DNA from: a virus | IMG/VR virus record: IMGVR_UViG_3300010158_000027 | Location: 186,001 to 250,000 of that record | Reading direction: 5' to 3' (one strand) | DNA: 64,000 bases | Part shown: positions 8,071 through 63,563 of the stretch, in pieces | Layout: every line of letters starts with the position of its first letter | Numbering within the stretch: position 1 is the first letter of the stretch | Notes under the pieces: generated by a model | What the model was told of the DNA's origin: nothing | Databases searched by the model: none | What the model saw: the letters and a program-made list of their open reading frames with translations, nothing else | Program-made: the position numbers and the translations under genes

Positions 8071-8846
8071 TTAAAAAAATAGTACATTTTTCTGATTTAC
8101 ATATCAGACTATATAAGGATCACGACTTATATCGATCAATTTTGGAGTCCGCAATCGAACAATGGAAAGTATTATCACCTGACCGTATTGTCTTTACTGG
8201 TGATTTGGTACATTCCAAAAATCAGATGACACCAGAGTTAATTGAGTTTGTTGCTTGGATTTTAACTGAATGTGCTAATATCTCAAAAACTATCATTATA
8301 CCTGGAAATCACGACTTTTTGACCAATAATATTGAAAGATTGGACGCATTAACGCCAATTATTAATTCATTAAATAACTCAAATATTGTTTATTACAAAG
8401 ATAGAGGTGTTTATGAGGACGATAACGTTAGTTGGTGCGTTTACTCACAATATCAAGGAAATATCCCCCCCGACATTAGTGAAGCGAGGGGGATTAAAGT
8501 TGGTTTATTTCATGGTCCAATCGTTGGGTTAAAAACCGATCTTGGGTTTGAGTTCGGAGAAGAGGCATATGATATTGAAAAGTTTGATGGACTCGAAACC
8601 GTATTGTGTGGTGATATTCATAAACGAGCTGAGTTCCAAATTAAAGGGGGTAAAGGATATATGATAGGATCGACGATCCAGAACAACATTGGGGAAAGTG
8701 TCGGTAGACACGGTTATGGTGTGTACGATGTTGAAACTAAAGAGTATGGATATGTTGATTTGGACAACCCAAAACCATTTTTAAAGTTTGAAATAAAATC
8801 ATTTGAAGATATTGAACATGGAACCGAATTACTCAAAAATCTTTAA
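8067..8846 (+). CDS. 47: gp47/SbcD/Mre11-like nuclease subunit
   Basis: 259 residues with the metallophosphoesterase motif series: HFSDLHIR (D10, H12), FTGDLVHSK (D46), IIPGNHD (N81, H82), GLFHGPI, and GDIHKR. This is the Mre11/SbcD/T4 gp47 fold that pairs with a Rad50-type ATPase to process DNA ends and load recombination proteins. Shorter than bacterial SbcD and lacking a C-terminal capping extension, as in T4 gp47. The Rad50-like partner lies three genes downstream at 10242. Confidence 0.88.
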   Translation: MIKKIVHFSDLHIRLYKDHDLYRSILESAIEQWKVLSPDRIVFTGDLVHSKNQMTPELIEFVAWILTECANISKTIIIPGNHDFLTNNIERLDALTPIINSLNNSNIVYYKDRGVYEDDNVSWCVYSQYQGNIPPDISEARGIKVGLFHGPIVGLKTDLGFEFGEEAYDIEKFDGLETVLCGDIHKRAEFQIKGGKGYMIGSTIQNNIGESVGRHGYGVYDVETKEYGYVDLDNPKPFLKFEIKSFEDIEHGTELLKNL

Positions 8847-9612
8847 TAAAGTGACCCTCGATAGTGTCGATAGTTTTTGTAAACTAAACGGTATTGATGA
8901 TATTGAGAATTTCATTAAGGGGACGTTCAATGATGGGTTCAACATAAAAAAGTATGGACTATTAGGTAAAACACTTAATGATGGTGAAAAAGACTTAAAA
9001 ACGGGTGAAGTTGAAGAAAAACAAGTAATAAAGGAGGTGATTGTCGAAAAACGGGTGGAAGTTCCTGTTGAAGTGATTAAGGAAGTTGAAAAAATTGTTG
9101 AGGTTATTAAAGAGGTTACAGTTGATCGTATTGTTGAGGTAATTAAAGAGGTTCCGGTTGAAAAGGTGGTTATTAAAGAGATTATTAAAGAAGTGCCCAT
9201 TGAGAAAGTTGTCACAAAAATAGAATACATTAGTGACAAAGAATCTGAAAACGAGTTGTTGTTTAAAATACAACAACTTGAACAAACTGTTTTCCAGTTA
9301 AATGATGATTTGGAGTCAGAAAGGCAAGAATTTTCCACTAAAACCCAAGAAATGGCAAATCTTTTCCAGGATGACATATCTAAAAAGGATGAAAGTTTAG
9401 ACGAACTTAGACGGAGTTTAGATGTTAAACAAGACGACAACAAGTTAAAAATGTTACAAGACACCATCCAAACCCTTTCTTCGGAGGTTAGGGGACTTAA
9501 AAAGAAAAACGAAGATTTAGAGAATAAACTGTTAGATTTACCAAACCAACGTGGCGGGATTCCCGCCAAGTTTCATGGTGGTTCTAACCTAAACAATAAT
9601 TTATACAAATAA
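8818..9612 (+). CDS. coiled-coil protein with VEK/IVEV repeats
   Basis: Start chosen at 8818 (MEPNYSKIFNKV); an in-frame ATG at 8803 would only lengthen the overlap with gp47. After ~70 ordinary residues there is a degenerate repeat (PVEVIKEVEKIVEVIKEV and variants, ~10 units), then a long heptad-rich coiled coil and a Gly/Asn tail. The same repeat appears in the membrane protein at 17221. The gene is inserted between the two nuclease subunits. Possibly a rod-like scaffold; function unknown. Confidence 0.75.
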   Translation: MEPNYSKIFNKVTLDSVDSFCKLNGIDDIENFIKGTFNDGFNIKKYGLLGKTLNDGEKDLKTGEVEEKQVIKEVIVEKRVEVPVEVIKEVEKIVEVIKEVTVDRIVEVIKEVPVEKVVIKEIIKEVPIEKVVTKIEYISDKESENELLFKIQQLEQTVFQLNDDLESERQEFSTKTQEMANLFQDDISKKDESLDELRRSLDVKQDDNKLKMLQDTIQTLSSEVRGLKKKNEDLENKLLDLPNQRGGIPAKFHGGSNLNNNLYK

Positions 9613-9613
9613 C

Positions 9614-9964
9614 ATGAGTTTAATAATTTGGGCGGTAGTTGCCTATGGGATGACAAATATAATGGTTTACGGATCAATATTTAACGGATTAAGAGATAAA
9701 ATCCATAACTGGGGAGAAAATGATAACTCATTTTTTCAACCGATGGGACATTTTTTATCGGGATTAATTTCTTGTGTTTTATGCATGTCCACGTGGATTG
9801 GATTTTTTCTATCGATGTGTTATTTTTCACCAAATGCGGATATTATTGGACTTAATAAAGGATTATCCGTATTTTTTGATGGTATGTTATCTGCAGGTTT
9901 CGTATGGGGAATAAATGCTGTGATTGAATGGTTTGAGGAGAATAGACCGAGTAATAATAAATAA
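9614..9964 (+). CDS. membrane protein, DUF1360-like
   Basis: 116 residues with about three hydrophobic segments (residues ~2-20, 45-70, 85-105). The segment SCVLCMSTWIGF has the C-x2-C-x3-W arrangement typical of DUF1360-type small membrane proteins found in phages and Bacillus spores. Role unknown; the pattern suggests an inner-membrane protein with a Cys pair near the membrane surface. One nt after the preceding stop. Confidence 0.6.
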   Translation: MSLIIWAVVAYGMTNIMVYGSIFNGLRDKIHNWGENDNSFFQPMGHFLSGLISCVLCMSTWIGFFLSMCYFSPNADIIGLNKGLSVFFDGMLSAGFVWGINAVIEWFEENRPSNNK

Positions 9965-35497: not shown

Positions 35498-35595
35498 GCT
35501 CCTAACAGCTGGGTGTATGAGAAGGTTTGCTTAGATGAACTTTAAAATTACCACTAAACTTGATAGCAAACTTTCTTATACACCTTGTTAGCACC
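35498..35595. repeat. attC-like imperfect palindrome (copy 1)
   Basis: CCTAAC (35501-35506) ... GGTGTATGAGAAGGTTTGCT (35512-35531) pairs, with two G-U pairs, with AGCAAACTTTCTTATACACC (35565-35584), ending GTTAGCACC (35587-35595). The R''/R'-like boxes and unpaired bases resemble integron attC sites. Near-identical sequence recurs at 62681-62776. Confidence 0.55.
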
Positions 35596-35619
35596 AGTAC
35601 GGTGATTTTAATATAAAAC

Positions 35620-58975: not shown

Positions 58976-60268
58976 ATGAATACATTAGATAAAAAATACA
59001 CAGATTTACTCCGAGATATATTAGATAATGGAGTCCGCAAGGAGGATCGTACTGGGACAGGCACACTTTCAGTATTCGGAAGACAGATTCGTCATAATAT
59101 GTCTGAAGGATTTCCATTGATTACATCAAAGAAGATGTATTTTAAGGGTATTGTAACCGAACTATTATGGTTTTTAAGAGGTGATACAAACATTAAATTC
59201 CTAATTGATAATAGTTGTCATATTTGGGATGGAGACGCTTATCAAGCTTATTGTGAGCGATATTGGGAATTAGATGAGATAGATAAAATAAAATATGGTA
59301 GTTCATATTATAATAACGAAACTAATGAGTATGAGTTCGAAACATATTCAAAAGAAGAATTCGTTGACTATATCAAAACAAATGATGAGTTTGCTAAGAA
59401 GTACGGAGATTTAGGCCCAGTTTACGGGAAGCAGTGGAGAGATTGGAAGCATATTAAAGAAGGCGGTTACTTACTTAAAAATGGAAATGAAGGTACAGGA
59501 ACAACAACTAAACATATTGACCAAATCGCAAACCTAATCAACGACCTTAAAACAAACCCAGACTCACGTAGGTTAATGGTTTCAGCGTGGCATGTTGGTG
59601 ATATAGATGAAATGACATTGCCGCCATGCCATTTCGGATTTCAAGTTTATACAAGAGAGTTTAGTTTGGACGAGAGAAAACAAATATTTGAAGATAGAGG
59701 ATACGTTTGCGATCTATGGCCATTTAATGGTGACTGGCATGGTGAATATGATGGATTTGGAATACCACGCAGAGCAATCTCATTAATGTGGTCGCAAAGA
59801 TCGTGTGATATTTTTTTGGGAATCCCATTCAACATCGCTTCTTATGGGTTGTTATTAGAAATCATTGCTAAAACAGTTAATATGGTTCCTGATGAATTGA
59901 TTGGAAACTTGGGTGATACTCATTTATATTCAAATCACATTGAACAAGCAAAGGAACAAATAGGTAGAGAATTAACATATAAAGAACGTTATGATATTTG
60001 GTTTGAGAATAATTACCAAACTGGTATGGAATATAATTTAGATGTCGAACAAGACTTTAATAATAATGTTGGTGAAGATTACATGACTGTACCACCTTAT
60101 AGGTCGAGAGAACCTTTTCCATTACCAACATTAAAAATAAATTCAGGAAATGATAATTGGCATTTATTAGGTATCAACGAAATCATTAATAGTTTAGATC
60201 CAGATATTACTTTTAAAATAGAGAACTATCAATCACATCCGACAATTAAAGCACCACTATCAAATTAA
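58976..60268 (+). CDS. thyA: thymidylate synthase (ThyA), enlarged
   Basis: 430 residues; typical ThyA is near 265. Conserved: VRKEDRTGTGTLSVFG, FPLITSKKM, WFLRGDTNI, GPVYGKQWRDW, RRLMVSAWHV, catalytic TLPPCHFGFQ (~Cys 217), FLGIPFNIASY and NLGDTHLY. Insertions occur after WDGDAYQAY (~90-130), after FQVYTREF (~225-260) and in the C-terminal third. All catalytic blocks are present, so it should make dTMP for phage DNA. Confidence 0.92.
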   Translation: MNTLDKKYTDLLRDILDNGVRKEDRTGTGTLSVFGRQIRHNMSEGFPLITSKKMYFKGIVTELLWFLRGDTNIKFLIDNSCHIWDGDAYQAYCERYWELDEIDKIKYGSSYYNNETNEYEFETYSKEEFVDYIKTNDEFAKKYGDLGPVYGKQWRDWKHIKEGGYLLKNGNEGTGTTTKHIDQIANLINDLKTNPDSRRLMVSAWHVGDIDEMTLPPCHFGFQVYTREFSLDERKQIFEDRGYVCDLWPFNGDWHGEYDGFGIPRRAISLMWSQRSCDIFLGIPFNIASYGLLLEIIAKTVNMVPDELIGNLGDTHLYSNHIEQAKEQIGRELTYKERYDIWFENNYQTGMEYNLDVEQDFNNNVGEDYMTVPPYRSREPFPLPTLKINSGNDNWHLLGINEIINSLDPDITFKIENYQSHPTIKAPLSN

Positions 60269-61599: not shown

Positions 61600-61690
61600 A
61601 TAAAGAAAGAATTAGGATGGACTGAACAAACGAGGACAGAAGGACATAGGCAATTTGTTTCTTTGGTTAAACCACAAATGTAGCCTTGTT

Positions 61691-61821
61691 GCTAACGGTT
61701 GAGGGTTTATTTAGTGGCGACTTTACGCACAAAACTTAATTAGAAATACAAAACTTGATAATATGAAAACTGATAATTTGAAACACGAAACTAAGCCATT
61801 GAATAAACCCTTTGTTATGCG
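61691..61821. repeat. attC-like site A
   Basis: GCTAAC (61691-61696) ... AGGGTTTATT (61702-61711) pairs perfectly with AATAAACCCT (61802-61811), ending G-TTATGCG (61814-61821). It is immediately preceded by another imperfect palindrome (GGC-ATTTG / CAAAT-GCC, 61650-61685). Confidence 0.5.
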
Positions 61822-62056
61822 AAGTTTTTTTAAGAAACCAAGTAAGATTATAGAGGTGGAAATCCCAAAAGGTTTTTTCAATTGTGGCGTAAGTGTATGC
61901 AACCACTTTTTTGCAGATACAAATAATAGCGTAGATTGGAAAACGCTTAAATTTCCATTACCAAAACCATTAGGTAAAAAATGGGAGATATTAAGATATG
62001 ATATTGTGAATGAAGAAAAAACCATTGTAGAATTAGTTTCTCGTGGGTGGTTCTAA
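61763..62056 (+). CDS. cassette ORF 1, 97 aa (79 aa from the internal start)
   Basis: Two plausible starts: ATG 61763, inside attC-like site A, or ATG 61817, which overlaps the crossover box GTTATGCG. The body is IIEVEIPKGFFNCGVSVC, then a short strand-rich end. Unrecognised function. Its 3' end is followed by TTCGCATAAC, the exact reverse complement of GTTATGCGAA at its 5' end. Confidence 0.55.
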   Translation: MKTDNLKHETKPLNKPFVMRSFFKKPSKIIEVEIPKGFFNCGVSVCNHFFADTNNSVDWKTLKFPLPKPLGKKWEILRYDIVNEEKTIVELVSRGWF

Positions 62057-62059
62057 AAT

Positions 62060-62194
62060 TTCGCATAACGATACTCAGATATATGGAGTTTTTTCTTAAA
62101 TTGAAATAATAAACTTAAATAATATGAATAAAGATAATAAGAACACAGAAGTTAATGACACAGATAAAAAATTACATATATCTGATGTTAGAAA
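62060..62194. repeat. attC-like site B
   Basis: TTCGCATAAC (62060-62069), then CAGATATATG (62076-62085) pairs perfectly with CATATATCTG (62175-62184), ending GTTAGAAA (62187-62194). Confidence 0.55.
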
Positions 62195-62363
62195 TAGTAT
62201 TCAAGAACGGATTAAAGGACATAAAAACAACATCAGTAGTTGTTTAGAGTTAATACAGACTAAAGGTAGAGAAACTGATGTTGTTATTAACTTATCAGTT
62301 AGTATTAGGAACTCAGAAATTAGAATATCTGAACTGGAATTAGTTCTTGAATATTGTTTCTAA
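62124..62363 (+). CDS. cassette ORF 2, 79 aa
   Basis: Helical small protein (VRNSIQERIKGHKNNISSCL, ISELELVLEYCF). The ATG lies within attC-like site B, so the first ~22 residues are encoded by the palindrome. The stop codon TAA is part of TTTCTAAC, the reverse complement of GTTAGAAA at the cassette's 5' end. Confidence 0.55.
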   Translation: MNKDNKNTEVNDTDKKLHISDVRNSIQERIKGHKNNISSCLELIQTKGRETDVVINLSVSIRNSEIRISELELVLEYCF

Positions 62364-62438
62364 CGTTTTGCAACTACGCTTAACGGCTATCGGAAGCGAA
62401 CGTTTCAAGCCGTTGAGTGTAGATGCTGTTAGGTGCAG
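62357..62438. repeat. attC-like site C
   Basis: TTTCTAAC (62357-62364), CTACGCTTAACGGCT (62374-62388) pairs at 13 of 15 positions with AGCCGTTGAGTGTAG (62408-62422), ending GTTAGGT (62428-62434), a perfect GTTRRRY. About 80 nt: a canonical attC size. Confidence 0.65.
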
Positions 62439-62464
62439 TATTTTTAACAAGTAAATTTAAAATT

Positions 62465-62686
62465 ATGATAATTGATTACAATAAAATAATAGAAAAGCAT
62501 TTAGGTGTTAATACTCCTCAATGGATAAAAGACAATGTATATAGTTGCATTAAAGAAATAGAAGAGCAAAATAAAAAAGAATGCAGTTATATCTCAGATG
62601 GAAGGTTTACATCAGGCAATTGTCTTTATTGCGGAAAATCCAAATACACTCACGGTTTATCGGTAGGTTCGTGCTATTGCAGCTAA
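62465..62686 (+). CDS. cassette ORF 3, 73 aa, zinc-binding type
   Basis: Start at 62465 (MIIDYNKIIEKHLGVN); an in-frame ATG at 62423 lies in attC-like site C. C-terminal CLYCGK and CYCS with an intervening His suggest metal binding. The cassette runs from GTTAGGTGCA (62428) to TGCAGCTAAC (62678-62687), reverse complements at 9 of 10 positions. Confidence 0.55.
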   Translation: MIIDYNKIIEKHLGVNTPQWIKDNVYSCIKEIEEQNKKECSYISDGRFTSGNCLYCGKSKYTHGLSVGSCYCS

Positions 62687-62776
62687 CGATTGGGTGTATG
62701 AGAAGGTTTGCTTAGATGAACTTTCAAATTACCACGAATACTCATAGCAAACTTTCTTATACACCTTGTTACAACC
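62681..62776. repeat. attC-like site D (copy 2 of 35498 repeat)
   Basis: GCTAAC (62682-62687), GGTGTATGAGAAGGTTTGCT (62693-62712) pairs with AGCAAACTTTCTTATACACC (62746-62765), ending GTTACAACC (62768-62776). By my hand alignment it and the following promoter differ from the copy at 35498-35652 at about 13 of 143 positions. Confidence 0.65.
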
Positions 62777-62800
62777 AGTACGGTTAATTTAAGATAAAAC

Positions 62801-62831
62801 TTGACTAATTGGAAAATAAGTAGTATATTTG
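62801..62831 (+). promoter_or_regulatory. Bacteroidota-type promoter, leaderless gene
   Basis: TTG (62801-62803), 20 nt, TATATTTG (62824-62831), then exactly 4 nt to the ATG at 62836. Confidence 0.65.
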
Positions 62832-62835
62832 TATT

Positions 62836-63030
62836 ATGGAAGAAGAAAAACACATTATTGAAACTTTAGCTAATATTGGCGTAGAAAAAGAAACAACGCT
62901 TGAAATAATGCACGAACTCTTATTTAATTCAAGTAACTACGCTGATAATCAAGATGCGATTGACACTATGTTACAAGAAAAATTGGGGATTGATTTATAC
63001 ATAACATTAACACAATATAAAAAAATATGA
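62836..63030 (+). CDS. cassette ORF 4a, 64 aa
   Basis: Helical acidic protein (ETLANIGVEKETTLEIMHEL, DAIDTMLQEKLGIDLYIT). Expressed from its own promoter inside the cassette; overlaps the next gene by 4 nt (ATGA). Unrecognised; size and overlap with a partner would fit a toxin-antitoxin pair, though no family match is evident. Confidence 0.55.
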   Translation: MEEEKHIIETLANIGVEKETTLEIMHELLFNSSNYADNQDAIDTMLQEKLGIDLYITLTQYKKI

Positions 63031-63392
63031 AAAACAGATTTTACATAAAAAACTTTGAAGAAGCCGCTTCATTGAGGAAAAAAGAATTAGACGATGCTTT
63101 GGTTGAAAAATACGAAAAACTCTTATTTCTAGAGAATATCCCAACTGAAGATAAATTAGAATTATCTCAATTGTATGAAGATTTTACTAAGTTTTTAATA
63201 AATGTTGATAATTGTGAAGAAAATTTTCAAACTCTCTTCATTCCGATAACTAAAAAACTATATACTGAGTTTAAAGAAACTGATTTTATTAAAATATTTG
63301 AAATGTATTCAGAGTGGTGTGTTAATTCTAAACTAGAGAATGACGATGAAATATTTAAAGGGTTTATGACGTACTATAAATCGAAGCGATAA
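63027..63392 (+). CDS. cassette ORF 4b, 121 aa
   Basis: All-helical, acidic (NFEEAASLRKKELDDALVEK, LELSQLYEDFTKFLINVDN). Translationally coupled to ORF 4a. The cassette ends with GGTTATAAC (63402-63410), the reverse complement of its start box GTTACAACC at 8 of 9 positions. No known family. Confidence 0.55.
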   Translation: MKNRFYIKNFEEAASLRKKELDDALVEKYEKLLFLENIPTEDKLELSQLYEDFTKFLINVDNCEENFQTLFIPITKKLYTEFKETDFIKIFEMYSEWCVNSKLENDDEIFKGFMTYYKSKR

Positions 63393-63443
63393 TGTAGTAT
63401 TGGTTATAACTAGTGGCTATACGAACTTTAAATTGTATAAAAA

Positions 63444-63563
63444 ATGAAAGTTATTGAAAAACAGTTAGATAACCATACAATCAAAATTATGATTATTTCT
63501 CATAGATTTAATAACTTTCCTAATCTTGACTCAGAAGGATGTTTAATACTTAAAAGAATATGA
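63444..63563 (+). CDS. small hypothetical protein, 39 aa
   Basis: MKVIEKQLDNHTIKIMIISHRF..., ending LILKRI. Its TGA overlaps the next ATG (ATGA), suggesting coupling to the response regulator. Confidence 0.4.
   Translation: MKVIEKQLDNHTIKIMIISHRFNNFPNLDSEGCLILKRI

Follow-up and report, generated by a model that had tools for sequence, protein, structure and literature searches.

RESULTS

Hairpin sites and gene cassettes in the genome of a large phage

We analyzed a window of 64,000 nucleotides, corresponding to positions 186,001 to 250,000 of the IMG/VR record IMGVR_UViG_3300010158_000027 (coordinates are those of the window unless a locus is named). As shown in Table 1, four hairpin sites (A to D) alternate with four cassettes between positions 61690 and 63410, and each cassette ends in the reverse complement of the sequence with which it starts. 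The boxes quoted at the cassette ends in the initial annotation are all present in the sequence with the complementarity listed, and the imperfect palindromes it described between neighboring cassettes were found at A to D.

Table 1. Coordinates of the cassette array and of the solitary attC site
Feature	Position	Strand	Remarks
Solitary fifth attC, type D	35498..35598	+	Covariance model 77.3 bits, E = 2.7e-14
Cassette 0, truncated, 3′ end	61609..61696	+	Open frame ...ELGWTEQTRTEGHRQFVSLVKPQM, stop, then R″ box GCTAAC
attC site A	61690..61820	+	TAAC^G...T^GTT; 5′ spacer 5, 3′ spacer 2; hairpin inside 61697-61813
Cassette 1 ORF	61763..62056	+	97 aa, unknown function
Cassette 1 end boxes	61814 / ..62069		GTTATGCGAA / TTCGCATAAC; 10/10 complementary
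attC site B	62063..62193	+	Loop encodes leader MNKDNKNTEVNDTDKKLHISD; hairpin inside 62070-62186
Cassette 2 ORF	62124..62363	+	79 aa; start codon within attC B
Cassette 2 end boxes	62187 / ..62364		GTTAGAAA / TTTCTAAC; 8/8 complementary
attC site C	62358..62434	+	Shortest of the four, 63-nt hairpin; hairpin inside 62365-62427
Cassette 3 ORF	62423..62686	+	87 aa, or from in-frame ATG 62465; unknown function
Cassette 3 end boxes	62428 / ..62687		GTTAGGTGCA / TGCAGCTAAC; 9/10 complementary
attC site D	62681..62774	+	91% identity with attC in L097, L082, and L057; hairpin inside 62688-62767
Cassette 4	62836..63392	+	Two ORFs: 62836-63030 and 63027-63392
Cassette 4 end boxes	62768 / ..63410		GTTACAACC / GGTTATAAC; 8/9 complementary
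Terminal R″ box of cassette 4	63404..63410	+	TTATAAC

We evaluated the array with a chain score, which combines stem strength and the complementarity of each cassette's own ends. The window array scored 55.8, compared with a maximum of 25.9 among dinucleotide shuffles (n = 100) and of 29.9 over all remaining 4-kb tiles of the 281-kb record. Some long chains returned by the hairpin search of 8-kb stretches contain weak chance links, and chains were counted only when own-end complementarity was strong. A covariance model search, which had been suggested as a check, was carried out with a model of 27 phage attC sites, none of them close to the window sites. It found all four sites on the + strand with E values from 6e-15 to 1e-3 (D, 80.3 bits, 6.2e-15; A, 55.9 bits, 1.2e-9; C, 44.8 bits, 3e-7; B, 28 bits, 1.4e-3). 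Chain score and model together uphold the proposal of an integron-like attC array in a phage. The solitary attC lies 26 kb away from the array. A cassette-like end, GTAGTATTGCTCCTAAC, stands in front of it, and downstream of it the window contains no closing box to match (GGTGCTAAC).

The phage is large and of the T4 type, with a T4-type major capsid protein and a terminase. Matches of the array neighborhood to named phages were mostly to Bacteroidota phages, through thymidylate synthase. The thymidylate synthase ORF (58976-60268, 430 aa) matches its family in two stretches and is longer by about 100 residues, which may represent an intein or another kind of insertion. To the right of the array, a stand-alone response-regulator receiver domain (PF00072; 63560-63919) is kept in a close relative without the array, L016 (L numbers designate loci on other contigs). 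As the initial annotation had noted for the integrase, no Phage_integrase or other tyrosine recombinase gene was detected in the 281,269-base record, which is classed as linear and may be incomplete. With four attC sites, where at least two are required, and no recombinase within the record, the locus classifies as a CALIN.

The flank of L016 is 98% identical to that of the window, and the homology ends at 61611 and restarts at 63536. These edges are not cassette or attI boundaries; the present array edges thus derive from some other recombination, and block insertion of the array by precise attI recombination was ruled out. The array is truncated on either side, with an ORF tail remaining at the left edge. 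Where the window has the array, L016 has a tandem pair of paralogs of unknown function (8489-9809), whose shared C-terminal end persists in the window at about 63536.

Related phages encode a recombinase next to attI

A search of viral contigs with the window proteins recovered cassette 1, from GTT to AAC, in L022 and L023 (90% and 79% nucleotide identity, respectively, to 61813-62076), flanked on both sides by other hairpins. Since cassette 1 occurs there without its window hairpins, hairpins may be swapped or replaced independently of ORFs. L024/L025 contain site D together with cassette 4, and there the second ORF of cassette 4 has 85% identity (97 aa) with the attI-proximal cassette. Site B shares 91% identity over 129 nt with an attC from the integrase-bearing array L086. 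In L022 and L024, a tyrosine recombinase gene follows the array on the same strand.

This recombinase family has at least 185 confirmed members on stretches of viral DNA, of which 80 were fetched (55 to 100% identity), several from contigs of 100 to 360 kb. Its arrays are known from metagenome assemblies, and no close relative of the recombinase was found among 50,697 named phage records. All loci read but one, whose contig starts within the recombinase gene, have an attI-like site, TAAC^TAtnATATAT, about 50 to 80 nt upstream of the recombinase start, although some copies are degenerate. The attI itself is conserved, whereas the sequence to its left is variable except for the R″ box. By chain score, the array lies at most 3 kb upstream of attI in 34/36 loci and downstream of the recombinase gene in 0/36. 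A tyrosine recombinase gene thus adjoins attI in related phages, but not in the phage of the window. There, the sequence following the last box reads AACTAGTGGCTATACG and contains no hairpin; speculatively, AACTAGTGGCTATACGAAC (63410-63470) might be a decayed attI, given its resemblance to AACTAGTATATATCAAC in L067.

Phage-type recombinases with attI-like sites were also seen on three contigs binned into bacterial MAGs (L225, a 150-kb Methylophaga MAG contig; L226; and L227). These are probably phage contigs; a search of the three for a T4-type capsid was empty, which is uninformative on phage origin.

Single cassettes are inserted at attI

Loci with near-identical recombinase genes (98.7 to 100%) are unrelated to one another in the sequence left of attI; the switch occurs at the R″ box, which terminates in AAC. 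Such switches were seen in the groups L044/L045, L067/L068, L069/L073/L075, L070/L072, and L071/L076. The recombinase genes of L073 and L075, two loci from different metagenomes, are identical. The two loci contain the same upstream cassette, ending in ...GAGCATAAC; attI is directly next in L075, whereas L073 has exactly one extra unit of 797 bp between this cassette and attI. The unit consists, in order, of a D-type hairpin, which is the same type as site D of the window, GTTATGTAC, an ORF, and GTACATAAC, followed by attI; no target duplication accompanies the insertion. Similarly, L027 and L031 have a common cassette ending at the same AAC, with a hairpin next in one and attI in the other. 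These comparisons define the mobile unit as a hairpin, the downstream ORF, and the closing box.

The initial annotation had implied canonical polarity, with the crossover at the G^TT box. Instead, the hairpin belongs with the ORF after it, the ORFs point toward attI, and the unit ends at the AAC box. The same annotation had named a lack of cassette-precise variation among related genomes, or failure of the palindromes in attC models, as results that would speak against an integron; the comparison of sequences revealed just such variation, with cassette-precise insertion at attI, and the covariance model recovered all four window sites. Sharing of the left versus the right hairpin among homologous cassettes yielded one informative cross-array pair, and polarity was settled by other evidence.

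Phage cassettes have reversed polarity

We scored ORF direction in 49 deduplicated phage arrays with 192 cassettes, 173 of them scorable. The ORF pointed toward attI in 164 and away from it in 9. Conversely, 31/32 ORFs in chromosomal Bacteroidota arrays by related recombinases pointed away from attI; canonical IntI arrays provided no useful positive control for ORF direction, being short or located at the ends of contigs. A phage cassette has its attC hairpin 5′ of its ORF, and the RYYYAA(C) box comes last. Phage arrays depart from canonical cassette polarity, to which the chromosomal relatives conform; attC hairpins with R″/R′ boxes lie between single-gene cassettes, as in integrons.

The attC sites are reversed as well. 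In phage sites, the AAC-side spacer exceeds the GTT-side spacer by 3 to 4 nt, the reverse of chromosomal sites, and G.T pairs are biased to the coding strand (287 versus 49), with the opposite bias in chromosomal sites. Sites A to D of the window bear the phage-type polarity marks. In phage loci, 274/275 covariance model matches fell on the recombinase/ORF strand, the lone exception overlapping a + match; in chromosomal loci, all 42/42 matches (13 + 29) fell on the strand opposite the recombinase gene. By analogy with classical attC, in which the strand with extrahelical bases recombines (PMC2727003), the coding strand would be the recombining one in phages, and we infer that the recombinase may act on the folded coding strand of phage attC, in a mirror of the IntI bottom-strand reaction.

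The recombinase lacks the additional domain of IntI

Full-length alignment of 28 members revealed invariant catalytic residues R133, K158, H217, R220, H243, and Y252, the R-K-H-R-H-Y set of tyrosine recombinases. The enzymes did not reach the cut-offs of the best-matching curated families: scores were 168 to 194 bits for the XerA-like family (cut-off, 220) and, in five diverse members, 140 to 172 bits for IntI (TIGR02249; cut-off, 265). The spacing from the catalytic K to HxxRH is 53 to 56 residues in the phage enzymes, 58 to 63 in the chromosomal relatives, 63 to 66 in Xer, and about 100 in IntI. Alignment to IntI4 (2A3V) skips residues 184 to 259 of IntI4, where the phage enzyme has 28 residues. 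The phage recombinase therefore lacks the additional (I2) domain and falls outside the IntI family. An AlphaFold model (pLDDT 82, pTM 0.60) gave XerA and IntI4 as its best matches. In the tree, for which the program warned of long branches, the phage enzymes and two MAG contigs form one clade (100/100), which joins the chromosomal Bacteroidota-type enzymes (94/89) and then IntI, with Xer outside (100/100).

The attC fold is conserved and may start translation

In an 80-nt class of attC with 18 stem pairs, 94.7% of cells are paired in the standard way, and slid registers fall to 38 to 56%. Fifteen pairs are changed on both sides, with 149 double-change cells compared to 42.8 after shuffling, and one G.T pair is invariant (27/27). 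These compensatory changes support selection on the single-strand fold, and the sequences suggest that attC may recombine as a folded single strand. A 40-nt class, GTCCGATGATAAACAATCGTTTTAATGTTGTTTATCATTT, is nearly invariant over diverse phages (L027, L030, L031, L047, and L070) with recombinases down to about 60% identity, and its 27-nt core has exact matches in at least 120 viral stretches.

Among hairpins of at least 100 nt followed by an open frame, 51/70 contain an in-frame start codon, compared to 26.5% with shuffled hairpins. About half of the long attC hairpins have a start codon in frame with the cassette ORF; in the window, the loop of attC A contains ATG 61763, in frame with cassette 1. 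Unrelated cassette proteins, including that of window cassette 2, can have common attC-encoded N-terminal stretches of 22 to 28 residues. These in-frame starts and common N termini suggest that attC probably supplies the translation start of the cassette ORF. The Bacteroidota promoter motif TTG-N-TAnnTTTG was unsupported within attC or the cassette start (15 sense and 8 antisense occurrences in 192 cassettes).

DISCUSSION

We propose, with a probability of about 85%, that the array in the window is what remains of a phage-borne integron, from a lineage whose cassettes are reversed and whose recombinase has no I2 domain. An intact member consists of an array, then the attI TAAC^TAtnATATAT, then the tyrosine recombinase gene. 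Cassettes are gained or lost singly at the AAC of attI, by a recombinase that would process the folded coding strand of attC. Each cassette would carry its own expression signals, since no attI promoter could read the inverted ORFs. The phage of the window would once have had or borrowed the recombinase, lost it later, and retained a truncated array. The 91% identity of sites B and D to attC of recombinase-bearing arrays points to an origin in those arrays, and we infer that the array is owed to a phage integrase which this phage lost.

That the array is instead an ordinary CALIN, acquired by the phage as a fragment of a host chromosomal integron and with cassettes moved by a host IntI or integron integrase, appears unlikely to us, although CALINs in phages have already been published (PMC9892861) and arrays do occur on Bacteroidota chromosomes near related recombinases. 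The window attC sites fit phage rather than chromosomal arrays in polarity and sequence, and of about 190 cassette proteins only 1 matched near sampled chromosomal integrases. Moreover, related phages themselves encode the recombinase, by attI, which also argues against the host integrase that the initial annotation had entertained as the mover. Clearly less probable still is that the cassettes are small transposon-like units with terminal inverted repeats (GTTA.../...TAAC) and no involvement of attC hairpins. Inverted repeats of at least 8 to 10 nt at the cassette ends, and 27-nt arms in cassette 2, would suit such units, but the L073 insert takes in a hairpin outside the repeats, at a fixed attI by a tyrosine recombinase, without target duplication, and the stem is under strong compensatory constraint.

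We give practically no credence to chance or unrelated hairpins, such as terminators or RNA elements, between small phage genes. The phage is AT-rich, sites A and B individually fold only slightly better than shuffles, and an Rfam search returned nothing above the curated threshold. Nonetheless, chance is refuted by the chain score, the covariance model matches, the homologous sites in dozens of arrays, and the L073/L075 insertion.

Classical integron cassette ORFs face away from attI. The phage systems share with classical integrons (IntI, TIGR02249) an attI by the integrase, attC hairpins with RYYYAAC/GTTRRRY boxes, one-ORF cassettes, and insertion at attI. Classical IntI differs in having about 100 residues, the additional domain included, from K to HxxRH, compared to 53 in the phage enzyme. 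The nearest recombinases (40 to 48% identity) belong to chromosomal integrons of Bacteroidota and some other phyla, for example those of Flavobacterium terrisoli (L257), F. limicola (L292), and Arundinibacter roseus (L255), which have the same attC type and a recombinase without the additional domain (K-to-HxxRH spacing of 59 residues, compared to 53 in the phages). Unlike in the phages, however, their recombinase gene points toward attI and their ORFs away from it, with attC 3′ of the ORF and of opposite strand polarity. I2-less chromosomal arrays were seen in Bacteroidota and other genomes (L257, L255, L229, L292, L301, L265, L242, L267, and others), and they have apparently been overlooked in IntI-based surveys; IntegronFinder 2.0 found a complete integron in Bacteroidetes proper solely for Salinibacter (PMC9024848).

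CALINs have been described in virulent phages, including Polaribacter phage P12002L (NC_028924), and IntI1 recombined their sites (Qi et al. 2023, PMC9892861). In that study, which used canonical attC models, the "divergent directions" of the P12002L sites were ascribed to mosaicism, and complete integrons were reported in temperate phages or prophages only. Those CALINs share with the present phage arrays an occurrence of attC arrays without an integrase and DNA methyltransferase cassettes. Our model matched the P12002L sites at about 38.9 and 39.1 kb on the minus strand, which is the ORF strand, giving the same polarity as in the window. That study described no phage-specific integrase lineage, no attI of this type, and no reversed polarity, which mark the present family.

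In inverted-bulge mutants of the V. cholerae VCR attC site, where the extrahelical bases had been placed on the other strand, strand preference shifted toward the top strand, and crossover moved to the R″ box (Bouvier et al. 2009, PMC2727003). Their polarity is that of the phage arrays, but those were engineered sites recombined with IntI1, whereas mirror attC polarity appears to be the natural state of the whole phage lineage. Treponema integrons are also atypical, with intI transcribed toward attI and the cassettes downstream in the same direction (PMC3607928); the phage recombinase gene instead is located past the 3′ end of the array and is oriented away from attI. Searches of openly available journal papers turned up neither a phage-encoded integrase like the present one nor inverted cassettes. 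The array polarity and the phage source of the recombinase appear to be new.

Acquisition of the I2 helix has been said to enable integron integrases to process single-stranded attC; its deletion abolishes IntI1 activity, and I2 was reported in no other protein (PMC7790495). One recombinase classification describes the insertion as incompletely conserved in its "integron-like" subgroup (PMC8138268), so recombinases without it have been seen before; no earlier report of arrays beside them was found in the literature searched. The I2-less recombinases beside attC arrays with natural one-cassette insertions make the I2 requirement directly testable. We regard it as fairly probable that large Bacteroidota-type phages have a widespread integron of their own, with I2-less single-strand recombination in mirror polarity, attC acting as translation-starting 5′ leaders, and self-expressing cassettes. 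If this is true, I2 is dispensable for attC recombination, and phages run an independent gene-cassette economy.

The choice of attC strand was believed to ensure that cassettes are oriented toward the integron promoter. The phage lineage would make the opposite strand choice, and the translation start has apparently moved into the attC hairpin. Integron surveys in which the IntI domain is a requirement would overlook the system, in phages and on Bacteroidota chromosomes alike. In 100 cassette proteins we recognized 10 Pfam families, and DNA methyltransferases are the largest named class, which makes a benefit such as evasion of host restriction plausible. Phages with such arrays would be vehicles of rapid gene exchange.
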